Shown piece after piece: positions 28,127-42,252 of a DNA stretch of 64,000 nucleotides (the stretch's first letter is position 1; the number at the start of each line of letters is the position of its first letter). The stretch spans positions 124,001-188,000 of the forward strand of contig NZ_CAIJDP010000060.1 of assembly GCF_903819435.1 (NCBI RefSeq). Reading direction: 5' to 3'. The notes under the pieces are model-generated. The model ran no database searches. It saw nothing but the letters and a program-made list of their open reading frames with translations, and was not told the DNA's origin. Position numbers and translations under genes: made by a program. This DNA comes from Flavobacterium salmonis. Its GTDB lineage: Bacteria > Bacteroidota > Bacteroidia > Flavobacteriales > Flavobacteriaceae.

Positions 28127-28882
28127 CTATGCATCATAATCCTTTTGCTTCGCACCATTTTTTAATTTATCATCGAATTCACCAGCAGCAGTTATGGTTA
28201 TGAAGAGTATCAGCATAATAAAATAAAGATCATTATAATCGGGTTTTGGCGCGAAGATTTCCGTTAAGCCGTCAAATACAAAAAAGGACAGCAGTACCAG
28301 GCTAAATTTACCAGTACTATTTTTAAAAGCACGTATAATGTCAAATTTTTCATCCGGCTTTTTAAATTTACGCAGACTAGGAATTAATGCAGGTACCTGC
28401 TCTGCCCATACTGAATATTTGAATCCATACTTTCGTTTGCAATGAATCTCTTCGGCAATCATAATTCTTTCAAAAAATACACAGCAGAAAAGCAGAAAGG
28501 AAATAATAAAAAAAAGATTACCCGTTACCAGAGCCGGTCCGAGCCACATTAGAAGCATACCATAACAAAGCGGGTGCCGTACTACTGAATAAGCCCCGTT
28601 TTTATTAAGCGTTTCATCTCTCCTGTCCCTACTGTCCAATGAAGTTCCATTGGCAGAATACCCATTGGTATATACCATAACAGCAAAGCCAAGCAAGCTG
28701 AAAAGCAAGCACGTTAATTCATAGATTGATTCATACTTCGAATTCTGAAAAAAATAATTTTCAGGATAAGTAGCTGATGTCAATAAAAATATATAACCCA
28801 AAATCAAAACAAACAAAGGAAGTCCCTTTGCTGAAGTGCTAAGATTAAAACCTTGTTTTTCTAACTCCTCCTGAAGTGCCAT
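28127..28882 (-). CDS. Isoprenylcysteine carboxyl methyltransferase-like (ICMT/PEMT type) membrane methyltransferase
   Basis: A 251-residue membrane protein. The family core is visible: NGAYSVVRHPLCYGMLLMW (H-P binding the methyl donor), then an E-rich segment ERIMIAEEIHCKRKYGFKY and VPALIPS at the end of the core. Bacterial members methylate various small or lipid substrates with S-adenosylmethionine; prenylated cysteine is not a bacterial substrate, so the true target is unknown. Two further helices follow the core at about 195-240. Upstream lies the terminator of the cytochrome genes, so it has its own promoter. Confidence 0.8.
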   Translation of the reverse strand: MALQEELEKQGFNLSTSAKGLPLFVLILGYIFLLTSATYPENYFFQNSKYESIYELTCLLFSLLGFAVMVYTNGYSANGTSLDSRDRRDETLNKNGAYSVVRHPLCYGMLLMWLGPALVTGNLFFIISFLLFCCVFFERIMIAEEIHCKRKYGFKYSVWAEQVPALIPSLRKFKKPDEKFDIIRAFKNSTGKFSLVLLSFFVFDGLTEIFAPKPDYNDLYFIMLILFITITAAGEFDDKLKNGAKQKDYDA

Positions 28883-28915: not shown

Positions 28916-28957
28916 TTAAAAAAGAAGCCCTGCGTGTGTCAGCAGCAACAGGGCTTC
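28916..28957 (-). terminator. Intrinsic terminator of the cytochrome operon
   Basis: On the minus strand a perfect 9-base-pair stem (GAAGCCCTG with CAGGGCTTC) encloses a 16-base loop and is followed at once by TTTTTT. It sits 48 bases past the stop of the 54-residue membrane protein and before the methyltransferase gene, which marks the end of the preceding transcript. Confidence 0.85.
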
Positions 28958-29004: not shown

Positions 29005-29169
29005 CTAATACAGTCCCTTTATAAATTGATAATCCTTTTCTAGTGGGTTTTCTTTGTTATTTACTTCTTTTGACTTTACCAACTGTAGTGTAACTGATTT
29101 TATTTTTATCAGAAAAATAATTGCAAGAAGTACAAAAATTAAAATCATAATGGAAAAAACTTGAATCAT
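29005..29169 (-). CDS. Small single-helix membrane protein after the cytochrome genes (54 aa)
   Basis: The ATG at 29169 opens a 54-codon frame. Residues about 3-22 (VFSIMILIFVLLAIIFLIK) are one hydrophobic helix; the rest is a charged tail (KSKEVNNKENPLEKDYQ). It lies 238 bases after the cytochrome c-fusion gene, on the same strand, and before their shared terminator. Tiny one-helix subunits such as CydX and CcoQ are normal parts of terminal-oxidase complexes, so it may be a third subunit. The leader has only an AAAGAA-like ribosome-binding site. Short length and weak signal keep the call tentative. Confidence 0.5.
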   Translation of the reverse strand: MIQVFSIMILIFVLLAIIFLIKIKSVTLQLVKSKEVNNKENPLEKDYQFIKGLY

Positions 29170-29407
29170 AATATTCTTTTTTTTTAGTTAAAAAATCAAT
29201 TAAAGTTGCTGGTTCATGAGCTGAATTATTTAAAATTGCGACTTGTTCTACAGTCTGACAAAGCACTCTGCTCTGTTATAATTTCTTTATCCTGCATTTT
29301 TTATTTCTTTTTAAATCTTGTTTATCCTGTATAAAACGCCCGTAACAACATGAAAACAATCAACGGAAAGAGATAGCAGACAGGAATTATATAAAATCAT
29401 TTTAAAT

Positions 29408-30754
29408 TTATTTAATCGTCAGGATATACTCTGCCAGCTGATCCAGCTTCTGTTGATCCAACTGCGATTCAAAACCTGGCATTTGTGGATAATCGGGACG
29501 TTTTTTGCCAGGATTTTTTATCCATTTCTGTAAATCTGCAGTATTACCTTTATAGATTTTTGCCATTTCCAAAACGGGCGGTCCCACTAATTTTTCATCG
29601 ATTTTATGGCATGCAGTACAATATTGGCTGAATACCTTCTGCCCTTTCTCTGCCTCTGTCATATCTGCCGAAGCTGCTCCTGCTTCCTGGGCTTTCACTT
29701 TAGCCAAAGCTTCCTTTTTCAAAATTTGAAATTCTGCTGTTTTAATTTTTACCAACTCCTGATGTTTTTCAAGTGCATTGGCCCTGTATATCTGTCTTCC
29801 TGATCCCATACACAAAACAGTGACTCCCAAAAGAATTGCTATTTTATAAAAATCTTTTTCTATATTTTCCTTCTCCCCTGTAAGTCTTTTCCATATCAGC
29901 CACATGGCGGGAACAGCAAAAATAACTCCAGAGAAAATGATCAGAATCAGGTTCCATCCCATCCCTTTGGAAGGCAGGGTCAGCAATACCAGCGGACCAA
30001 TCATGAACTGGCATATGGAGGCGGTAAATGCCAAAGAATAACCTTTCTTTTGAATATCATATCGGGTAAATTTTTGATAGATTTCTTCAAATGGGTAACT
30101 CTTGCGGCTGTTATACCAAAAAATAAATAAGCCTGTTACTGCCAGTGAAGACAAGATAAAGTGCAGGTATCTGGGAAAAATATTAGGGAGAAACAGTGCA
30201 TCAACAAAACCTTTTACTACTGCCCACTTTTCAGGAAAGAGCATTAAATTGATATTGGTCAAAAATATAAAGGGGATAAACAGAAAGATAATGGTTGCCA
30301 AGGCCAAAATTGAAATATGAACTGCTTTGTGATTTTCTAATGTCTCCCAAGTATACTTATGCAGGTAAGTAAGCAGGAATGCTACAGTCACCAGCGGTAT
30401 TACCGCGATCCACATCAAGCCTGTAAGTGCATTTGCCGAGTAAAAATAGATGGTATACAATACATTAATACTCAAAAGCGGTGCAATACCCAGTACAACA
30501 GCGATACTTTTGTTTACTGTTATTGTTTTTGCTATTTCATGTGCAAGTATATCGTATTCCTTATTTTTAAGACCTTTGATCTGAGCTATCAAAGCTAGAA
30601 TTGAACCTCCAAGCATCAGGTTAACAAAAAGAATATGTAATAGAAATGACAGCACCAAAACAACTACAAAGAACCATTCAGGCATTGGCAGCGGCAGTGG
30701 AATATCTTTTGGAACCGGAACGTTGTTTTGCAACGCAATATATAAATTGATCAT
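29408..30754 (-). CDS. Polytopic membrane protein with fused C-terminal cytochrome c domain
   Basis: A 448-residue protein. About eight to nine membrane helices cover residues 20-325; histidines suited to haem or metal binding occur in LSFLLHILFVNLMLGG and in PRYLHFILSSLAVTG, where CydA-type proteins also carry ligands. A lysine-rich linker (about 330-365) leads to a class I cytochrome c domain with C-T-A-C-H near residue 381 and a distal Met in YPQMPGF. It probably passes electrons between quinol and a c-type partner. It is 11 bases from the adjacent CydA-like gene. I do not know an established name for this architecture. Confidence 0.75.
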   Translation of the reverse strand: MINLYIALQNNVPVPKDIPLPLPMPEWFFVVVLVLSFLLHILFVNLMLGGSILALIAQIKGLKNKEYDILAHEIAKTITVNKSIAVVLGIAPLLSINVLYTIYFYSANALTGLMWIAVIPLVTVAFLLTYLHKYTWETLENHKAVHISILALATIIFLFIPFIFLTNINLMLFPEKWAVVKGFVDALFLPNIFPRYLHFILSSLAVTGLFIFWYNSRKSYPFEEIYQKFTRYDIQKKGYSLAFTASICQFMIGPLVLLTLPSKGMGWNLILIIFSGVIFAVPAMWLIWKRLTGEKENIEKDFYKIAILLGVTVLCMGSGRQIYRANALEKHQELVKIKTAEFQILKKEALAKVKAQEAGAASADMTEAEKGQKVFSQYCTACHKIDEKLVGPPVLEMAKIYKGNTADLQKWIKNPGKKRPDYPQMPGFESQLDQQKLDQLAEYILTIK

Positions 30755-30765
30755 TTTAAACTTTA

Positions 30766-32208
30766 TTATTTTTTATTTGCTAAAACTACTTTTGTATCTT
30801 GTAGTCCACTTACCTCTACACCTTCTGACTGTGCTCCTTCGAGAACATCTCCTGTATCCTGAATACTGCGGATATAGGCCGCCAAGGCTTCACTTTCTTC
30901 TTGGGTACCTGGAAAAGGAGGCATATAGGTTCTTCCGTTATGCATATTGGGAATATAAGATGCCATCGAGTTAATATCCAGCGGTTTTCCAACTCCATAC
31001 ATACGCTCAAAAACATCAACCACACTATTGACTCCCTGAGTTGTATGACAGCGACTGCATGCAATTGCAAAAACATTTCTGCCGGCTTCTACTTTGTTTT
31101 CCGCTGTAATCTCGGTTACTGTAGTATAGGTGGCATTTTTAAGAAGTCCGTATTGCTGGTAAACGGGATAATCTTCTTCCAATAATAAGTTGGAATACAT
31201 ATAACCTCCAATTACATATGGTTTTCGGACAAATTCACGCACCCTTTCAAAAAATCCAAGATATCCAAAAGCCATAACTACGGGAAACAATACAATATAA
31301 CTTCTAATCCATCTGGCTTTAAATAACCCTAAAACTGCCATTATGAGAGAAGAGGAAATTCCAAATAGTATAAAATACTTCATCAAATCGTAGTATTTAT
31401 TGAAATCCATTGTACCGACAGCTGTACTCATATTGGCGATCATAGCCTCAGGAATAGCACGATAGTAAATCACTGCCCCAATAAGCGAAATAGGAGCCCA
31501 CAGAATGATCCATTTTGACACATATTTAACTGCCTTAAGCCTTAAATTGGTGCCTTTTTTAAAGAACAGCGTTACCAGCATCATTCCAAAACTGCCTGCC
31601 ACCAGCATAGCAGTGGGCGTCCTGAATAATAATTGAGGAAGATATATAGGGTTGGTAAAACCATTAAGCAGACTCTTATGGGCGTTCCAGTTTCCTGGAT
31701 CCATCATAAAACTCAAAATCGAAACAATGATTGCCATAGTAATCCAGGAGAACAAACTTAAGAACCATCCAAAACGAATGTGCAATAATTTAGCCTTTAG
31801 TGATGTATTGCTGCTCTTCCATGTCAAAAAGTAAATCATGATTAAAATCACTTCGGTAACAAAAACAAGCCATTCTATAAACCATGCCCAGTAAAAAACG
31901 CGTATTAAACTTCCAATTGAGGTGGGACTCACAAGAGCCACAGAGAACCATATACCCACACCGGTCATTGCCCCGAGTGTTGTTGTGATGATAAAAGCAA
32001 CCTTCATCATATTATAAATCCTGTTGTCCCAATCTAAATCGGTAATCTGTTCCCTGCCGCTATTTTTTACGCCTTTCTGTTCCAGCCAGGTTATAAGTGG
32101 CATAAAACCAACTGCTAAACCGTGATTAATCATTACGTGAATAATGGCAATGATTGCGATAAGCATTCTATTGTTGAGCCAGTCTAAATGAAAAATTGGA
32201 AAGTCCAT
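30766..32208 (-). CDS. CydA-like membrane protein with fused C-terminal cytochrome c domain
   Basis: A 480-residue protein with about nine helices in the first 330 residues. The opening NRMLIAIIAIIHVMINHGLA, then FIITTTLGAMTGVGIWFS and WFIEWLVFVTEVILIMIYF follow the order of CydA, the haem-b subunit of bd-type oxidases, though the quinol-loop GRQPW motif is missing. The C-terminal domain has C-S-R-C-H near residue 384 and the distal Met in TYMPPF, a fused c-type haem. It is the upstream partner of the second cytochrome fusion (11-base gap). A divergent quinol- or cytochrome-linked oxidoreductase is likely; the terminal acceptor is unknown. Confidence 0.75.
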   Translation of the reverse strand: MDFPIFHLDWLNNRMLIAIIAIIHVMINHGLAVGFMPLITWLEQKGVKNSGREQITDLDWDNRIYNMMKVAFIITTTLGAMTGVGIWFSVALVSPTSIGSLIRVFYWAWFIEWLVFVTEVILIMIYFLTWKSSNTSLKAKLLHIRFGWFLSLFSWITMAIIVSILSFMMDPGNWNAHKSLLNGFTNPIYLPQLLFRTPTAMLVAGSFGMMLVTLFFKKGTNLRLKAVKYVSKWIILWAPISLIGAVIYYRAIPEAMIANMSTAVGTMDFNKYYDLMKYFILFGISSSLIMAVLGLFKARWIRSYIVLFPVVMAFGYLGFFERVREFVRKPYVIGGYMYSNLLLEEDYPVYQQYGLLKNATYTTVTEITAENKVEAGRNVFAIACSRCHTTQGVNSVVDVFERMYGVGKPLDINSMASYIPNMHNGRTYMPPFPGTQEESEALAAYIRSIQDTGDVLEGAQSEGVEVSGLQDTKVVLANKK

Positions 32209-32829
32209 AAAATAATTCTGTTTTTATACCGCAAATTTCGGACAGTAATTCCAAAACTGCTAAAAACAAAAAAGCAGGAAGTTTAAAAAAACGTTACTTT
32301 CAGATTCGTTATTAGTACTTTTTATACCACACTTTATTACTCTTAATTTAGCTTTTCAATCCTTTCTATTTGCTAAATACACTATTCTCGTAAAACTATC
32401 TAAATATACATCAATCTAAATTCAAAAAAATAAACACAAACAACTCAAAAACAGATGCTTAATGCATAAATAAAAAGCTTTCTGCTAAAATCCGTGTACT
32501 GTTTTCAAACTGTAGCATATAGTTTATTTAAGATGTTTAGATTCAGCTATTTTTGTATTGCCAAAACATATTAAATAAATAAGAAATCCATCAATATTAT
32601 ATTTCAGTTTAAAAATTATAATTGCTTTTTTGTTTGACAAACAGATCAAAGAAAACGAATTACGGTGCAGCTAATACAGTTACGGTAAATTTTAATTTAA
32701 CAAGCTGTTTTCAGGTAGGGAAAAAGCTTGTTTTACTGTTATATATAAATATTCAAATAATAATAATAATAATAAACGGACATGCCGAACACCGTTTTAC
32801 AAAGTAGGCAGTTTAATCAAATTGAAAAA
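32209..32829. promoter_or_regulatory. Divergent promoter region
   Basis: A 620-base gap between the cytochrome operon (leftward) and the carbonic anhydrase (rightward). No protein-coding frame is convincing. It is AT-rich; an ATAATAATAATAATAATAA-type tract lies at 32755-32775 just before the carbonic anhydrase leader. The promoters of both operons must be here, but I cannot point to exact boxes with confidence. Confidence 0.45.
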
Positions 32830-34447: not shown

Positions 34448-34756
34448 TTACTTCTTGTTTTTAGCCAGATATTCATCTGGTTTTTTCATAAAGTCATCTT
34501 TACATACCGTTGAACAAAACCCGTACAATTTCCCTTTATAAGTAACGGTATCACTAACGCCATACTTGCTGACATCCATATTACAGCTAAAGTCTATGTT
34601 GCTGGCGTAGGTCAATTTATTAAGCGGGTTTTTAGGATCTTTATACGTTGTTTCAGATTCCATCGTATGTGGATGATCATGTGGGTGTACTTTTGTTTCT
34701 TTTTTATTACAGCTTAACACAGCGGTGATGGCAACAATTACAAAGATTTTTTTCAT
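34448..34756 (-). CDS. YHS-type metal-binding lipoprotein
   Basis: A 102-residue lipoprotein (signal ends VLSC). A His-rich patch KVHPHDHPHTM precedes a YHS/TRASH-like domain with IDFSCNMDVS, YKGKLYGFCSTVCKDDF and KPDEYL, where the three cysteines are the probable metal ligands. Such domains bind copper or related metals. It is the last gene of the minus-strand series that includes superoxide dismutase, SCO and the MbnP/peroxidase pairs, 18 bases after the dismutase, so it is likely the distal member of that operon. Confidence 0.83.
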   Translation of the reverse strand: MKKIFVIVAITAVLSCNKKETKVHPHDHPHTMESETTYKDPKNPLNKLTYASNIDFSCNMDVSKYGVSDTVTYKGKLYGFCSTVCKDDFMKKPDEYLAKNKK

Positions 34757-34774
34757 AATATTAAATTTTGATGA

Positions 34775-35443
34775 TTATTTTATTAGAGCAGAATTATAGC
34801 GGGCGCTCACTTCATTCCAGTTAATTACATTCCATACTGCCGATAGATAATCGGCTCGTTTATCTTGATATTTCAAATAGTAAGCATGTTCCCAGATATC
34901 AATACACAAAATAGGAATTCCTTTATTTTGCACATCATCCATTAAGGGATTATCCTGATTGGCGGTAGAACTAATCTCCAGATTGTTATTCCCAGACACA
35001 CAAAGCCATACCCATCCGGAACCAAAACGGGAAAGTGCAGCCTGATCTAATTGTTGTTTTAAATTCTCAATACCTCCAAATTTTTCAGTTATAGCTTTGA
35101 GTAGCGCAGCCGAGGGTTTTGTATTTTTCTCCGGCGTTAAGAGCGTCCAGAACATCTGATGGTTATAATGCCCTCCTGCATTGTTTCTCACTGCCGCAGG
35201 CAAAGATGAAATCTTTGAAAAGAGCTGCTCCAGTGTCATTTTTTTATCTGCTGTAACTTTGAGCGCATCATTCAAATTTTTCACATATCCCGCATGATGT
35301 TTACTATAATGAATTTCCATCGTCTTTGCATCAATATAAGGTTCCAGAGCACCATAGGCATAAGGCAGTGGCTTTTGAACAAACTGAGCTGAGACTGATA
35401 AACTCAGGGTCAACATTACTATTAAAATCTTTTTGTTTAACAT
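34775..35443 (-). CDS. Exported iron/manganese superoxide dismutase
   Basis: A 222-residue enzyme with an N-terminal signal peptide (MLNKKILIVMLTLSLSVSAQ). The mature part holds the Fe/Mn-SOD motifs: HYSKHHAGYV, NNAGGHYNHQMFW and DIWEHAYYLKYQ, giving the three His and one Asp ligands. It converts superoxide to peroxide and oxygen in the periplasm; cytoplasmic SODs of this type lack a signal peptide. It lies between an AraC regulator and the YHS lipoprotein, 11 and 18 bases away. Periplasmic placement fits the copper/peroxidase neighbours. Confidence 0.92.
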   Translation of the reverse strand: MLNKKILIVMLTLSLSVSAQFVQKPLPYAYGALEPYIDAKTMEIHYSKHHAGYVKNLNDALKVTADKKMTLEQLFSKISSLPAAVRNNAGGHYNHQMFWTLLTPEKNTKPSAALLKAITEKFGGIENLKQQLDQAALSRFGSGWVWLCVSGNNNLEISSTANQDNPLMDDVQNKGIPILCIDIWEHAYYLKYQDKRADYLSAVWNVINWNEVSARYNSALIK

Positions 35444-35454
35444 GTTTTTTGTTT

Positions 35455-36321
35455 TTATTGATTTGATAATCTTCGGAACTGCTCGGGTGTCGTGCTGGTC
35501 TGCCTTTTAAAAAAAGTAACAAAATAGGATGCATTTTCAAAACCCAGCTGATCCGCAATTTCATTTATAGAATAATTCGTAAAATGAATGAGCCGTTGGG
35601 CTTCTATCACAATACGTCTGCGTATGAGATCCCCTGCTGTATAATTTGTTACTTCCTTACATATCTTATTTAGATAATTTGGCGTTACGTGCAGCAGGTC
35701 TGCATAGGCAGCGGGCATTTTTTTCAATTTAAAATCCTTGTCAATAAGTTTCTCAAATTCTTTTATTTTTTGCTGTTTAGGCGTATTGTTTCCAACAAAT
35801 CCCAAGGGATCATAAAGGTGCTCTAAATCGAAAAGCAAAATATTGAGATACGACCTAAGCACTTTCATCGACTCTCTTCTATGGAGAACAAACTCTTTAA
35901 AAAATATTTCCAGCAGGTATATCCACTTGTTTTTCTCCTCATCACTAAACCTTACAAATAATTTGGAAGTATCGTGAAGACAGGAAAATTGATCTAAAAT
36001 GTTACTATTATAGCGCAGGGAGAAAAAATCTTCCGTGAAACAGATTATTTTTCCTTTCGCTTTCCTGTTAATGTCTATACTGCTTATGCAGCGTGGCTTT
36101 ATAACGATAACCTTGGCATTATCGAGACGGATTTTCTGATTGTCAATGCTAATTTCTCCAGCTGCATCATCAATAAAGACAAGCATAAAGAAATCCTGCC
36201 TGTGAGGGTATTCCAATAAAGGAAATCGCTGCAGCAGGTTTGACAGGTTATCCATCCAGAAATGACTATCATCATCAGTAAATAAGCCCAGACCACGCAA
36301 TGGTATTTCTGAGATTTGCAT
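35455..36321 (-). CDS. AraC family transcriptional regulator
   Basis: A 288-residue protein. The N-terminal half is the ligand-binding part (GEISIDNQKIRLDNAKVIVIKP), and the last 100 residues contain the AraC DNA-binding domain: LKKMPAAYADLLHVTPNYLNK and SINEIADQLGFENASYFVTFFKRQTS. Because it sits inside the copper/redox operon with gaps of 36 and 11 bases, it probably regulates that operon or itself; the effector is unknown. Confidence 0.88.
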   Translation of the reverse strand: MQISEIPLRGLGLFTDDDSHFWMDNLSNLLQRFPLLEYPHRQDFFMLVFIDDAAGEISIDNQKIRLDNAKVIVIKPRCISSIDINRKAKGKIICFTEDFFSLRYNSNILDQFSCLHDTSKLFVRFSDEEKNKWIYLLEIFFKEFVLHRRESMKVLRSYLNILLFDLEHLYDPLGFVGNNTPKQQKIKEFEKLIDKDFKLKKMPAAYADLLHVTPNYLNKICKEVTNYTAGDLIRRRIVIEAQRLIHFTNYSINEIADQLGFENASYFVTFFKRQTSTTPEQFRRLSNQ

Positions 36322-36357: not shown

Positions 36358-36729
36358 TTACACGCATCTTGGAGGGTGGTAAATCGAAAAAACATAATTG
36401 GACTTTTGATTGCTCATCTGCAGCATTGGATGCTTTTTTTTTAATACAAAGCGTACCACTGTAAATGAAAACTGAACCTGAGTTTGTAAAAACAGCTGTA
36501 ATTCCTTATAGGTTACCGTTGGAAATTTCTGCTCCTGCTTTTCATTTTCTTTTAATTTATTCTCCAGGTAGCATTTTCCATTACAAATCGGCACAGCATC
36601 AAACCTGTTGATACAGAAATTTTTGGCAATATAATCCTGATTGATGTAAAAATCACCAATAATCCAGATACTGCCTGCATTTTGAAATACAAGCAACATT
36701 AGAATAAATAAAGTGATACATTTTTTCAT
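36358..36729 (-). CDS. Small membrane protein with C-x8-C-N-G-K-C motif
   Basis: A 123-residue protein whose first 20 residues form a membrane helix or signal anchor. The conserved core is YINQDYIAKNFCINRF followed by ICNGKCYLENKL, three cysteines in a pattern shared with a second gene at 42357 (NQQEIAKTICVQRK, SCNGRCELQKSLK). Both end in a PP-rich tail. It lies 11 bases after the SCO gene in the copper locus. Three clustered cysteines and this neighbourhood suggest metal binding or thiol chemistry; no function is known. Confidence 0.72.
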   Translation of the reverse strand: MKKCITLFILMLLVFQNAGSIWIIGDFYINQDYIAKNFCINRFDAVPICNGKCYLENKLKENEKQEQKFPTVTYKELQLFLQTQVQFSFTVVRFVLKKKHPMLQMSNQKSNYVFSIYHPPRCV

Positions 36730-36740
36730 CAGTGAAAAAT

Positions 36741-37355
36741 TTATTTAGTGGAACTTTCTTCTAAAAGATTTTTTACATCAGCGATCAGCCTTGTAGTTTC
36801 CTTTGGATTTGTCCCATCGTAAACACCACGAACATGCCTGTTCTTGTCAATGAGCAGAAATCCACCACTGTGCACAAAACCGCCAGGTTCATTTTTATCA
36901 GGATATGCTGTTGCAAAATAACTCTCGGTTGCAATTTTATAGATGCTGTCTCTGTGCCCCGTTACAAAATGCCAGTTCTTTTTTATACCGTTATCTACCG
37001 TATATGCTTTTAGGCGTGGTATAGTGTCATTATCCGGATCTATAGTATGAGAAAGAAACAATACCTCATCATTGGTTTTATATTCATCATATACTTTTTT
37101 GAGCTGCACATTCATTTTCGGGCAGATTGAAGGGCAGGAAAGGAAAATGAAATCAGCAATATAAATTTTGCCGTCAAAAGTTTTATTGTTTATCTCCAGA
37201 CTGTCCTGATTGGTAAATGAAAAGTCTTTGATACGAGGGTACTGGGTTTCATTGCCCTTTACTATAGGATTTCCTAAAATTGGAAGCTTTTCCTGTGCTT
37301 TCTCACATGATATTACCAACAGACAGTGTATGATTATCAAAACTATTTTTTTCAT
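36741..37355 (-). CDS. SCO1/SenC family copper chaperone lipoprotein
   Basis: A 204-residue lipoprotein (signal ends VISC). The thioredoxin-like domain holds the copper-binding C-x3-C in FLSCPSICPKM and the distal His in GFVHSGGFLLID, all required residues. SCO proteins deliver copper to the CuA site of cytochrome oxidase or keep cysteines reduced. It lies downstream of the outer-membrane CDACGC protein (61 bases) and upstream of a small Cys-rich protein (11 bases). Whether it serves an oxidase or the MbnP/peroxidase system here is open. Confidence 0.92.
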   Translation of the reverse strand: MKKIVLIIIHCLLVISCEKAQEKLPILGNPIVKGNETQYPRIKDFSFTNQDSLEINNKTFDGKIYIADFIFLSCPSICPKMNVQLKKVYDEYKTNDEVLFLSHTIDPDNDTIPRLKAYTVDNGIKKNWHFVTGHRDSIYKIATESYFATAYPDKNEPGGFVHSGGFLLIDKNRHVRGVYDGTNPKETTRLIADVKNLLEESSTK

Positions 37356-38389: not shown

Positions 38390-39448
38390 TTATTCTGAAA
38401 ACTGCTTATCGTTTAAATATTGATAATCGGTCAGCGTTTTCAAAAAGGCAATCAATTGTTTTTTTTCTGCTTCAGAAAGTGAAATGCCTAATTTTCCATT
38501 TTTATTCAATATAGGATCTAAAGTTGGCGAAGCCAAAACACCACTATTGTAATGTTCAACTACCTCCTGCAAAGTTCCAAATCTGCCGTCGTGCATGTAG
38601 GGACCTGTTTTTTCAACATTGCGAAGCGTTGGTGTTCTAAACTTTCCTAAATCTTCCAAATTATTGGTAATCCTGGCTCGGCCTCTTCTCATCATCAGCT
38701 CGGTATCATCTGTAAAATCATTATCGATTCCGTTATTATGGTATAAATTATCTGTCAGTAAAGGTGCTGCATGACAGGAAAAGCAAAATTGTTCTGCCAG
38801 TCCGAGTCCTTTAAGTTCCTCTTCATCCATCATACCGCCTGACTCACCACGCAGATACTTATCATATCTTGAATTTGCGGAGATCAATGTTCTCTCAAAC
38901 TGAGCAATTGCCTTTACGATATCCGCTTGGTTAATTATCTTTCCAAATGCTTTTTCAAACATTTTCGGATAAGCGGCATCGGCATTTAATTCCTCAAGTA
39001 GTTCTTCCAGATTTTGGTGCATCTCATCGACGTGCGCCAAAGGGGCAAATGCCTGAGATTCCAGATTAGTAGAACCTCCATCCCAAAACAACCCATTATT
39101 GGCCCAGGCCAGATTGATGAGCGCCGGAGAGTTACGTTCCAGTGCATTTCCTGAAATTCCCTGTTTGGTAAGCGCAAAGCCGTCAGAGAAAGCTAAACTC
39201 TGCTGATGACAGGTAGCGCATGAAACCTGATTATTACCTGAGAGCCTTTTATCAAAAAACAACTTTTTCCCCAGTGCAATTCCGTCAAACGTCAAAGGAT
39301 TTGTTTTTGAATCCACAAACTCAGGAAAATTACCAGGAACCAAAACCAATGGCTGTGGCTCCTGATAGTTATCATCAAGATCATTACAGGAAAAGCTTAA
39401 AAAAACCAAACCTGCAATGCTCCCAATTTTTATAATTCTATCTAACAT
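38390..39448 (-). CDS. Di-heme cytochrome c peroxidase family lipoprotein (MbnH/MauG-like), copy 1
   Basis: A 352-residue lipoprotein (signal ends SFSC). Two c-type haem sites are visible: SCATCHQQ near residue 80 and FCFSCHAA near 228; the end shows NGKLGISLSEAEKKQLIAFLKTL as in the CCP/MauG/MbnH family. These enzymes use one high-valent haem to oxidise peroxide or a protein tryptophan. Immediately upstream (3-base gap) is MbnP, the known partner whose tryptophan MbnH converts to kynurenine for copper binding; that pairing makes MbnH more likely than a plain peroxidase. Confidence 0.9.
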   Translation of the reverse strand: MLDRIIKIGSIAGLVFLSFSCNDLDDNYQEPQPLVLVPGNFPEFVDSKTNPLTFDGIALGKKLFFDKRLSGNNQVSCATCHQQSLAFSDGFALTKQGISGNALERNSPALINLAWANNGLFWDGGSTNLESQAFAPLAHVDEMHQNLEELLEELNADAAYPKMFEKAFGKIINQADIVKAIAQFERTLISANSRYDKYLRGESGGMMDEEELKGLGLAEQFCFSCHAAPLLTDNLYHNNGIDNDFTDDTELMMRRGRARITNNLEDLGKFRTPTLRNVEKTGPYMHDGRFGTLQEVVEHYNSGVLASPTLDPILNKNGKLGISLSEAEKKQLIAFLKTLTDYQYLNDKQFSE

Positions 39449-39451
39449 TAA

Positions 39452-40237
39452 TTATTCTACGCTTTTAACTGTAAAAACATTATTTTTATAATTATCAGCT
39501 GTTTTTGTCATTAATTCAGGCGTTTTAGCCGATACTTTTGGATTGGCTACCAAATCAATATCTTTTACAATTTTCTCCACATCAACATTCAAATTCAATT
39601 TGGCACTTTTGCCTGCGCTTACCACCAAAGGAGTCGGCAAAGTAATTTCTACTGTTCTGTAATTTGTATTTAAACCTGTTTCAACTGAGATAGCAACCGG
39701 AGTTCCCGGGCTAACATTTTTACCTGTAAGGCTGGAGAAAATATAACTTGTATGCCACATCCATGATACATTAGTCATACCGTTGAGTTGTGATAATTCA
39801 CCATCCTGAATACTCATATTATCATTGTGGGCAGCATCAACTCCGACAGAGAAAATAACTTTAGTGTAGGATGCTGATGGAACATCTTTTAAATCAATGG
39901 TTTCTCTTTTAGCCGCTTTGTAGGTGAATTTTTCCTGAACCAGTATATCTGTGGTTTCTTCCATTAGAAAGAAAGAATTAGAAAGCGCATAAGTTTCATT
40001 TTTATCGCTTACCAGTTTAACATCACTGATCCAATAACGAAGATGGTCAAATTGAAACGACTGACCATTTATGGTAAAGGGAGTGTTTAATACAAAATCT
40101 GCAGCTCCTACCTTTGAATCAAAATTAAGCTGCGTATCTCCGCTTGTTGCCACCACTGCATCAGCAGCATCACTTGAACATGAATTGAGAGAAAGTAAGG
40201 CAATAAGGGCTAAAGAAATATTCTTAAAGTTTTTCAT
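39452..40237 (-). CDS. MbnP-like copper-binding lipoprotein, copy 1
   Basis: A 261-residue lipoprotein (signal ends LNSC). The body has QFDHLRYWISDVKL, a GVDAAHNDNMS stretch and the tryptophan-rich WMWHTSYIFSSL (about 148-160), the site type in which MbnH-modified tryptophan and histidine bind Cu(I). It probably stores or presents copper in the periplasm. It is coupled to the di-heme enzyme downstream by a 3-base gap. It is most similar to the copy at 53995, sharing the WMWHTSYIFSSL string exactly. Confidence 0.88.
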   Translation of the reverse strand: MKNFKNISLALIALLSLNSCSSDAADAVVATSGDTQLNFDSKVGAADFVLNTPFTINGQSFQFDHLRYWISDVKLVSDKNETYALSNSFFLMEETTDILVQEKFTYKAAKRETIDLKDVPSASYTKVIFSVGVDAAHNDNMSIQDGELSQLNGMTNVSWMWHTSYIFSSLTGKNVSPGTPVAISVETGLNTNYRTVEITLPTPLVVSAGKSAKLNLNVDVEKIVKDIDLVANPKVSAKTPELMTKTADNYKNNVFTVKSVE

Positions 40238-40266
40238 TGTTGTATTTTTTAAAATAAATTAAATTT

Positions 40267-41310
40267 TTAAAATTCCGAAAATCGTTTATCGGTTAAATAT
40301 TGTGTGTCTGTGAGCGTTTTTAAAAAGGCAATGATCTGTTTTTTTTCTGTTGGTGAAAGTGCAATTCCAAGCCTGCCGTTTTTCTTTAAAAGCGGATCCA
40401 GTGTCGGGGAATCTTCTACGCCTGATTCATAATGATTCAAGACTGCTTCCAGTGTACCAAAACGACCGTCGTGCATATAAGGTGCTGTAACTTCAATATT
40501 ACGAAGGCTCTGCACCTTGAACTTGTAATAATCCGAGGCTTTTTCAGTTACCTTGTAACGCCCCACGTCATTAACTTTTGGGTTTACAGCAAGACCGTTA
40601 TTACGGAAAGAGTTGTCGGTCATTAGATCTGTTGCATGACAGGAAGCGCAATTGGTTTTAAACAAATTATATCCCGCAGTTTCATCAGCCGAAAAGTTAC
40701 CTCCGGGTTCACTTCGCCTGAACTTATCAAACTTTGAGTTGGATGAAACCATCATCACCATAAATTGTGATAATGCCTTTAGCATATTCTCGGTTGTGAT
40801 GGCTTTATCTTCAAAAGCCTGTCCAAAAAGCTTTTGGTATTCCTTATCACCTTTCATCATGGCAAGGATTGAATTCAGGTTTCCATTCATTTCAATTACG
40901 CTTGTAAGAGGAATAACAGGCTGTAAATCTAAATTTTCAGCCGCTCCGTCGTACATATAACTAGTTTGAAATGCCATATTTTGAATTGGCGGCGCATTAC
41001 GAGTGCCTACTGCATTATCCACACCATGACTTACTGTATGCCCGTGATGGGTAAAGGCATTAGCCTGCAGGTGGCAAAAACCGCACGATACCAGTCCATC
41101 TGAGGCCAGCCTTCCATCATAGAAAAGTTTTTTTCCTAATTCAAAACCTTTTTCAGTGGGTTTGTTTCCTTCGATGTTATAGGCCGCAGACGGAAAGTTG
41201 GACGGTATCGCAAAATCCAGTGGAACATTGACGTACTGCTCTTCTTCATTATCAGAACAGCTTATCAAAAGGGGAACCACTAAACAAATAAAATATCTTA
41301 ATTTCAACAT
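40267..41310 (-). CDS. Di-heme cytochrome c peroxidase family lipoprotein, copy 2
   Basis: A 347-residue lipoprotein (signal ends LISC). Haem sites are SCGFCHLQ near residue 74 and CASCHAT near 224; AVLNHYESGVEDSPTLDPLL and the LGIALSPTEKKQIIAFLKTLTD end parallel copy 1 closely, which shows a duplication. It sits upstream of MbnP copy 1 (29 bases) and downstream of MbnP copy 2 (135 bases), so each MbnP has an adjacent peroxidase on the same strand. The likely reaction is oxidation of a tryptophan or of peroxide in the periplasm. Confidence 0.9.
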   Translation of the reverse strand: MLKLRYFICLVVPLLISCSDNEEEQYVNVPLDFAIPSNFPSAAYNIEGNKPTEKGFELGKKLFYDGRLASDGLVSCGFCHLQANAFTHHGHTVSHGVDNAVGTRNAPPIQNMAFQTSYMYDGAAENLDLQPVIPLTSVIEMNGNLNSILAMMKGDKEYQKLFGQAFEDKAITTENMLKALSQFMVMMVSSNSKFDKFRRSEPGGNFSADETAGYNLFKTNCASCHATDLMTDNSFRNNGLAVNPKVNDVGRYKVTEKASDYYKFKVQSLRNIEVTAPYMHDGRFGTLEAVLNHYESGVEDSPTLDPLLKKNGRLGIALSPTEKKQIIAFLKTLTDTQYLTDKRFSEF

Positions 41311-41445
41311 ATTTTTGAGTTTAAAAAAGCAAGTATCAATTCAACGTACATCAAAACAGGGAGCACTGCTTCATCCGCATAAATGCAGATAAAGGGGTAT
41401 TCCGCGAAAAAAGAACGCGAATTAATTCCTGATTACTGTAAATAT

Positions 41446-42252
41446 TTAGTCGTTGTGCACGTGATCTATTCTGAACATTTTTGAAATGTTAGTGGTTATT
41501 TTAGGCAAGGCTTCACCACCCATAATCATAGCTCCCATTTCGACTTCATTGTAGTCTGAGAGTTTTATGGTATTCTCTCCATCAAGAATTTTAGACAAGT
41601 CTGCTACGATATGAACAGCTGGAGTAATATTGCTTCTTACCAGTGCTTTTATAGGCAAATCCAAAGTTACCTCAGTATAATTATATGCACCTCCAATTTG
41701 TCCGGTATGAATCATAAAAGAAGCTGGTGAAGTAACACTTGCTGAAGTAAAAGTTCCCTCGAAAGCGAGATATTTATAACCCGCAGACCAGCTCCAAAGT
41801 AAATCTTTGGCCTGTGCTTTGGCTAAAAAATCACCCTGACCAGCAGCGCCCAATTGCCATTGCTCTTTATCAACTCCAATTCCAAATTTTACTTTGGTAT
41901 AATCACCCGACGGAATATCGGTAAGATCAAACTGATAGCCTGTCGCCGTATCATTTTCATCGGCAATAAAATAGCTTTTTGCTTTTGGGTAGATAAAAGT
42001 CGTCCCGTCTGATTTGGTCAGGACAATGTTGCTTACAATGTAGCGTACCACATTTACCCTGAGTTTTTCATTGTTTGCTGTTGTATTGGTCTGGGTGTCC
42101 AGAATAAGATCATTACCATTAAAGGAATTATCAAATTTCAATGCTATTTTCCCCGTTTCAGCTGTTGTATTGTCCTGTTCCTGATCACTTGAACATGAGG
42201 TAATAAAAGCGCTCAAGGCTACTATTACTACTTTGTATAGTATCTTTTTCAT
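41446..42252 (-). CDS. MbnP-like lipoprotein, copy 2 (divergent subtype)
   Basis: A 268-residue lipoprotein (signal ends ITSC). It has the MbnP framework: VVRYIVSNIVL, GIGVDKEQWQLG and the tryptophan patch LLWSWSAGYKYLAFEG (about 143-158), followed by FMIHTGQIGG. This W-S-W-x-x-G-Y-K form differs from the WMWH form of the other two copies and suggests a different metal site. The neighbouring gene (135 bases on) is a di-heme peroxidase. It is probably a periplasmic copper protein that needs tryptophan oxidation to mature. Confidence 0.85.
   Translation of the reverse strand: MKKILYKVVIVALSAFITSCSSDQEQDNTTAETGKIALKFDNSFNGNDLILDTQTNTTANNEKLRVNVVRYIVSNIVLTKSDGTTFIYPKAKSYFIADENDTATGYQFDLTDIPSGDYTKVKFGIGVDKEQWQLGAAGQGDFLAKAQAKDLLWSWSAGYKYLAFEGTFTSASVTSPASFMIHTGQIGGAYNYTEVTLDLPIKALVRSNITPAVHIVADLSKILDGENTIKLSDYNEVEMGAMIMGGEALPKITTNISKMFRIDHVHND

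Follow-up and report, generated by a model that had tools for sequence, protein, structure and literature searches.

Three minus-strand genes at positions 29005-32208 of a 64,000-nucleotide stretch of Flavobacterium salmonis DNA (contig NZ_CAIJDP010000060.1, positions 124,001 to 188,000; hereafter the window, in whose coordinates positions are given) probably encode a bd-superfamily cytochrome c:O2 oxidoreductase, with the largest product, subunit A, as the catalytic one. The genes stand in the order A-B-S, with gaps of 11 nt between A and B and 238 nt between B and S:

30766-32208, minus strand: subunit A, 480 aa; 8 predicted membrane helices; CydA fold in the structural model; C-terminal haem c motif CSRCH at residues 384-388, with Met429
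29408-30754, minus strand: subunit B, 448 aa; degenerate CydA paralogue; 8 predicted membrane helices; C-terminal haem c motif CTACH at residues 379-383, with Met425
29005-29169, minus strand: subunit S, 54 aa; one helix; conserved C-terminus YQFIKGLY

Textbook cytochrome c oxidases are copper enzymes, and, to our knowledge, the characterised bd oxidases all draw their electrons from quinol. A cytochrome c oxidase of the bd type, if real, would break this division, would show the route by which haem b558 and the quinol site are lost within a superfamily, and would explain how coupling to complex III can be kept without copper. An earlier sequence-only reading of this DNA had proposed a possible new respiratory complex; that it is a respiratory complex is probable.

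Fold and active site of subunits A and B

In the Pfam and NCBIfam scans the sole meaningful or above-cut-off matches of A and B are their haem c domains, and phmmer searches against the PDB return cytochromes c for both, together with weak matches of A to copper nitrite reductases, through the haem part of the latter, and a weak match of B to a CydA chain (5doq_A, E 0.0019). The membrane parts were compared through AlphaFold2 models, built from alignments of 37 of the 42 A rows and 35 of the 43 B rows after exclusion of near-duplicates and partial rows, with mean pLDDT of 77.5 for A and 87.9 for B and eight long membrane helices in each; the model of A is poor at residues 1-12, 263-270 and 329-340. 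VIA-align, applied as a re-examination of Foldseek's own top 1000, places ten bd CydA entries first for A (Z 23.9-26.6, over 304-323 residues at rmsd 3.4-3.8) and ten for B (Z 23.9-26.0), the next fold being that of alternative complex III subunits, with Z up to 18.1 for A and at most 17.6 for B. Foldseek alone gives the same result at lower confidence (best E 6e-6 for A and 3e-4 for B), and its matches at E ≤ 0.001, nine for A and four for B, are all bd CydA chains; the model of B resembles CydA chains more than CydB chains. Comparison of profiles links A to CydA (E 9e-8, probability 94%) and A to B (E 2e-15, 98.5%, haem domains included). A is tied to CydA by sequence as well, since a distant A-like protein from another Bacteroidota family (locus L107) passes the PF01654 cut-off over residues 15-203 (74.4 bits against 26.2), and its alignment with A (E 3e-51) spans almost the whole length and takes in the haem domain. 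The models indicate that A and B share the CydA fold, B being a degenerate CydA paralogue, and the description of twin CydA-like proteins with C-terminal haem c at CSRCH and CTACH in the sequence-only reading is borne out.

For the comparison of residues, 42 A rows, 43 B rows and 11 CydA rows were aligned together in two MAFFT modes, which are concordant on A; the CydA rows are 11 of 14, L069 and L073 (upstream extensions) and L075 (another open reading frame) having been left out, and L076 is divergent. The E. coli CydA residues R9, H19, E99, E107, H126, E445, R448 and P450 are retained in 41 to 42 of the 42 A rows, as R14, H24, E112, E119, H143, E325, R328 and P330 of A, respectively. In the E. 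coli enzyme R9, H19, E99, E107 and E445 bind or serve the two active-site haems. The ligands of haem b558 are lost, with Phe in place of H186 in all 42 A rows and no common Met at M393, and the quinol-loop positions K252 and E257 fall in gap columns in the 42 A and 43 B rows, in line with the earlier view that there is no quinol site. To judge from these kept and lost residues, A can hold both active-site haems and the proton path, but neither haem b558 nor a quinol site in the manner of CydA. The GRQPW motif of CydA, which had been reported as missing, indeed does not occur as such, but the segment is not simply absent, as it aligns with RKP[YWF] in the A rows (RKPY in A itself), with its Arg three residues past the conserved E325. 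We take GRQPW to lie outside the quinol loop, and the alignment agrees.

Subunit B retains H19 (as H40), H126 (as H146) and H186 (as H198, in 40 of 43 rows). Among R9, H19, E99, E107 and E445 it keeps H19 alone: with both modes the R9 column is devoid of Arg and a Glu is lacking from the E99, E107 and E445 columns. At M393 a Met is found in 7 of 43 rows in one of the two alignments. All 42 A rows have the haem c motif and a conserved axial Met; the latter is also found in 41 B rows, the two other B rows ending before it. A and B would both end in a haem c with His/Met ligation.

In the proposed mechanism the donor would not be quinol but cytochrome c, or else one of two complexes, alternative complex III or Rieske/cytochrome b; electrons would enter at the periplasmic haem c domains and pass to the di-haem site of A, where O2 would be reduced with protons led from the cytoplasm via the equivalents of E99 and E107. 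As the protons for O2 reduction would come from the cytoplasm, turnover would be electrogenic without pumping. B may serve as a structural partner in the place of CydB and as a second haem c entry, and S may pack against A and B as an accessory subunit, in the way of CydX in bd oxidases.

Several points weigh against the assignment as a cytochrome c:O2 oxidoreductase. No PF01654 row is obtained for A or B at E ≤ 1 in the Pfam scan, and the profile comparison of B with CydA (E 1e-4) is weak by its probability of 56%. The segment 329-340 of A, just past E325, has pLDDT below 50, so that the RKPY match comes from the alignment and not from the model. In B the two alignment modes disagree on the E99 and E445 columns, although neither places a Glu there. 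The haem c of B is dispensable, being absent from the closer relative L106 and from all five distant B-like proteins in the tree described below; since these lack it, the twin haem c is a trait of the present A/B subfamily, and that of B is not essential to the plan. The A-like protein of the distant locus L105 has neither haem c nor the catalytic motifs. The distance of an electron step from haem c to the active site without b558 may be a weak point, the O2-reducing activity of A-B-S is a predicted one, and the conservation of the active site in A would also be compatible with NO or peroxide as substrate.

Pairing of A and B, distribution and the small protein S

A adjoins B in 38 of 39 genome-contig loci, the remaining contig ending inside B, and the two are therefore not chance frames. 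The loci belong to Bacteroidota, Acidobacteriota, Verrucomicrobiota, Planctomycetota, one Bdellovibrionaceae genome and one unassigned bacterium, and do not all represent independent genomes (L002 and L024 have identical S, and L039 is seemingly a second copy from the genome of L003, with the same S). The operon is present in deposited Flavobacterium strains, the nearest named relatives of the window being Flavobacterium. The distribution of A is patchy: it is found in 23 of 299 genomes of the genus sample, 1 of 299 of the family sample and 3 of 40 relatives (one of them with two copies); in a phylum-wide search 40 of 395 genomes match at E ≤ 1e-5, but in 18 of them the match is confined to the N-terminal part or to the haem domain. 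No relatives of A were found in viral contigs, and PHROGs gave no matches for A, B or S.

In a tree of 44 rows, with 12 of the 42 A and 12 of the 43 B sequences, no labelled OR-C row and a long-branch warning from the program, A and B form, each with distant relatives, separate clades (support 100/95 and 100/100) outside the CydA clade. Gene order varies among the distant loci: A, A, B in L102, B followed by an A-like protein with eight haems in L103, and A then B in L104. In L107 (4241-8462) the genes of a CydA-like pair, B-like first and A-like last, stand on either side of a bc-type complex, with Rieske before cytochrome b, and L105 (2059-6193), from another Bacteroidota lineage, has the same order, its B-like protein being identified by the tree alone. 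A pair that encloses Rieske and cytochrome b genes fits a cytochrome c-linked role.

Frames of about 895 aa (L087 and L088) had been considered as A-B fusions, a reading that was rejected, as they are A-like proteins (L103:2867-6630, the same gene as that of L087, and L088:97-3842) in which the haem c motif CxxCH occurs eight times, each preceded by a distinct B-like gene that is haem-less. As a separate observation, CydA-like proteins of about 600 aa lie beside proteins with two CxxCH motifs in L099 (2135-3913) and L101 (3914-5812), the gene in L101 adjoining a set that resembles, by reading, an aa3-type haem-copper oxidase; they may perhaps represent another quinol-site-less bd family.

An S-type frame, mostly of 53-55 aa with one N-terminal helix (88 aa in Sphingobacterium, L043), lies behind B in 27 of the 29 Bacteroidota loci with sequence at that place, a set that includes the locus of the window and some identical or near-identical genomes. 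The exceptions are Sediminibacterium (L042), with a diverged frame, and Tangfeifania (L046), with none behind B; outside Bacteroidota no S-type frame was found behind B among the loci examined. Of 4629 small frames (25-120 aa, from 63 loci), 27 have the C-terminal motif of S, [YF]xFI[KR]xL[YF], and every one of these is located behind B; the dN/dS of S has a median of 0.094 and a largest value of 0.62 over the 52 usable pairs of 153 (the others with dS of 0 or above 2, or failed). Motif and codon changes together show that S is a real conserved gene, which bears out the 54-residue one-helix protein of the sequence-only reading, and lack of conservation is excluded within Bacteroidota; the survey of the three genes that had been suggested thus places A beside B throughout the taxa above and S behind B in Bacteroidota only. 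By its charge (KIK past the helix) the tail of S should be cytoplasmic. No CydX-type family appears for S among the Pfam and NCBIfam rows at E ≤ 1, in a scan whose filters can miss very short proteins. An identity with CydX or another known small subunit was rejected, the only matches being weak ones below cut-off (among them ATP-synt_8 and a glycine-rich protein family) that were judged compositional.

Three features lie next to S:

28918-28957, minus strand: terminator-like hairpin and T run, 3' of S
29170-29407, minus strand: between B and S, out-of-frame remnant of a second small open reading frame, where eight other Flavobacterium-type loci have a small membrane open reading frame
28127-28882, downstream: membrane methyltransferase like the Leptospira lipid A Kdo2 1-phosphate O-methyltransferase LmtA (127.8 bits, cut-off 325)

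A different additional small frame is located after S in L037 and L042. The spacing of the genes in the window, the tighter spacing in several relatives and a promoter scan suggest that A, B and S form one transcript; no minus-strand promoter match was found between B and S in this weak consensus scan. The strong closing terminator of the sequence-only reading stands as regards the hairpin (-20.5 kcal/mol, z -2.3, an energy equalled by 5 of 200 shuffles) and the T run behind it; a simple terminator scan called none, because its loop limit is 8.

Gene neighbourhood and alternative explanations

Upstream of A the window contains the following features:

32260-32284, minus strand: conserved element upstream of A, a candidate regulator site; single genomic occurrence at up to 3 mismatches
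34448-34756, minus strand: YHS-domain small protein
34775-35443, minus strand: Fe/Mn superoxide dismutase (SOD), with an apparent N-terminal signal (by reading)
35455-36321, minus strand: AraC-type regulator
36358-36729, minus strand: small protein with a CNGKC motif, flanked by the SCO1 and AraC genes; no Pfam family
36741-37355, minus strand: SCO1/SenC protein
38390-42252, minus strand: two MbnP/MbnH-like pairs in tandem, beside SCO1

The same-strand series leading away from A reads YHS, SOD, AraC-type, CNGKC, SCO1, a familyless protein, MbnH, MbnP, MbnH and MbnP. YHS is separated from A by two opposite-strand genes, which encode a carbonic anhydrase and a DUF2490 protein. The NCBIfam scores of MbnH and MbnP are under the curated cut-offs, and the Pfam score of MbnP is above its cut-off in the one copy scanned. 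In 27 Bacteroidota loci, with counts limited by flank length, an AraC-type gene on the same strand is found upstream of A in 22, SCO1 in 15, YHS in 15 and SOD in 9; the identity of AraC falls to 31-33% in Myroides and Sphingobacterium. In two other genomes, at L093 (5918-6802) and L094 (5968-6852), an AraC paralogue (34%) lies between cydA and a haem-copper oxidase set that bears FixO, the families having been checked for one of these loci. Several relatives have a complete hairpin (GCAGGAA..TTCCTGC), followed by T runs, between the upstream genes and A, and both of its sides are changed in L040. As its left arm is broken in the window and in most of the nearest relatives, the hairpin was set aside as an RNA element and only its right half was kept as the candidate regulatory site.

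This neighbourhood suggests a refinement of the cytochrome c oxidase reading, possible though tentative, in which AraC would switch the operon on at copper shortage, and A-B-S would stand in for the haem-copper cytochrome c oxidases, with copper being scavenged meanwhile by SCO1, MbnP/MbnH and their partners. Among 40 relatives, 35 of which have general SCO1 paralogues, SCO1 at 55% identity or more and AraC at 47% or more occur only in the three that bear A and B; this operon-specific SCO1, its recurrence upstream of A and the two MbnP/MbnH-like pairs suggest a copper-sparing oxidase. SCO1 and PCuAC also lie about 3 kb upstream in the Bdellovibrionaceae locus, and a TonB receptor and PepSY_TM are nearby in L029 and L040. 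According to excerpts from the literature, Bordetella requires its copper-independent bd oxidase under copper limitation (PMC12914433), bd compensates in Mycobacterium tuberculosis (PMC12140626), and copper downregulates the genes of CorA and CorB (PMC3621798), although the excerpts of the last source state that, as of 2013, no data tied close MbnP homologues to copper. Against this refinement, the Myroides loci have the AraC-type gene but no SCO1 in the available flank, SCO proteins can also act in thiol redox, and similar genes might equally be recruited when copper is in excess. Some Verrucomicrobia have a two-component system instead, a histidine kinase and a Fis-type response regulator directly before A (L053:2-1671 and L051:341-2304; L058 by reading only), the L053 kinase carrying the motif GGLTNPF, which we take to recall the redox sensor RegB. 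The genome of the window encodes, besides two haem-copper-family subunit I genes, one canonical CydA gene, which would already be copper-free. It also has a second copy of the upstream cluster (L095, G000:C82:52000-68000; CNGRC, MbnP/MbnH-like pairs, SCO1 and CNGKC, ending in a truncated AraC gene) without SOD, YHS, A, B or S.

A joint reading, to be held with yet more reserve, would combine these elements into a dedicated copper-sparing cytochrome c oxidase that keeps alternative complex III working once the haem-copper oxidases can no longer be supplied with copper. It would be controlled by its own AraC together with the SCO1/MbnP/MbnH copper-acquisition set; B would supply a second entry through its haem c, and the conserved cytoplasmic tail YxFI[KR]GLY of S, a new small subunit, would gate or stabilise the complex.

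A protective enzyme, which would spend electrons from cytochrome c on clearing O2, peroxide or NO close to the membrane and not on conserving energy, appears unlikely. The SOD gene lies in the same gene run in 9 of the 27 loci, and excerpts on E. coli bd-I report a peroxidase-like activity (PMC8225038); the other 18 loci, however, have no SOD match, the Glu residues aligned with E99 and E107 are invariant in A, and one distant relative shares its locus with the genes of a Rieske/cytochrome b complex. A quinol oxidase of two CydA paralogues, with the haem c domains as side branches, is very improbable: it could draw on the two paralogues without a CydB gene alongside, on the retained active site and on the archaeal CydAA', reportedly described as a quinol oxidase by Murali in 2021, but the quinol loop is missing, H186 and M393 are lost in A, and the haem c motif is present in every A row. 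The same low probability is given to a new type of quinol:cytochrome c oxidoreductase with haem c fed from the membrane, for which haem c domains that terminate a membrane protein and the lesser resemblance in fold to alternative complex III subunits (Z no higher than 18.1) might speak; on the other side stand the invariance in A of the ligand and proton-path residues of an O2-reducing site and the lack of an identified quinol site.

Comparison with known systems

The sequence-only reading could not place this architecture in a named complex, a view that is not supported, since the predicted folds are those of CydA and bd families without a quinol site have already been published. According to the excerpts available, the classification of bd enzymes includes the OR-C and OR-N families, which lack a conserved quinol site (PMC13189123, PMC10839748, PMC11707229, PMC12342949, PMC8509429); OR-N enzymes are thought to use cytochrome c, and the OR-N CydAA' pair two CydA paralogues. 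In the alignment A likewise keeps the active site and lacks the quinol site. OR-C is said to have been described with fused haem c by Murali, Gennis and Hemp in 2021. Enzymes of the bd superfamily that use cytochrome c have, as far as these sources reach, already been classified in silico, and the family would be characterised to that extent only; in the excerpts covered, which concern OR-C, CydAA', bd-like proteins that bear cytochrome c domains, and the limitation of copper, neither biochemistry nor purification of a bd enzyme with fused haem c was found, nor any description of S. As far as the searches go, the conserved S, the upstream AraC-type regulator and the operon-specific SCO1 with MbnP/MbnH-like genes are new.

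In summary, A and B share with OR-C and OR-N a CydA-type core without a quinol site and, with OR-N, the pairing of paralogues and the likely cytochrome c donor, and differ from both, as described in the excerpts of citing papers, in the haem c on each protein, the third gene of 54 aa and the AraC/SCO1 neighbourhood. The canonical CydAB(X) has in common with A-B-S the predicted fold, the di-haem residues (in A) and a one-helix small subunit, whereas A-B-S has no quinol loop, no b558 ligands in A, additional haem c domains, a partner that is CydA-like and not CydB-like, and an S that matches no CydX model. The archaeal CydAA' resembles A/B as a pair of CydA paralogues without CydB but, unlike the proposed enzyme, oxidises quinol; we know of no fused haem c in it. 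The cbb3 oxidase (CcoNOP/Q), a cytochrome c oxidase, offers the parallel of a membrane-bound haem c and a small one-helix subunit; it has, however, the haem-copper fold, whereas A and B have, by their models, the bd fold, with no copper site indicated.

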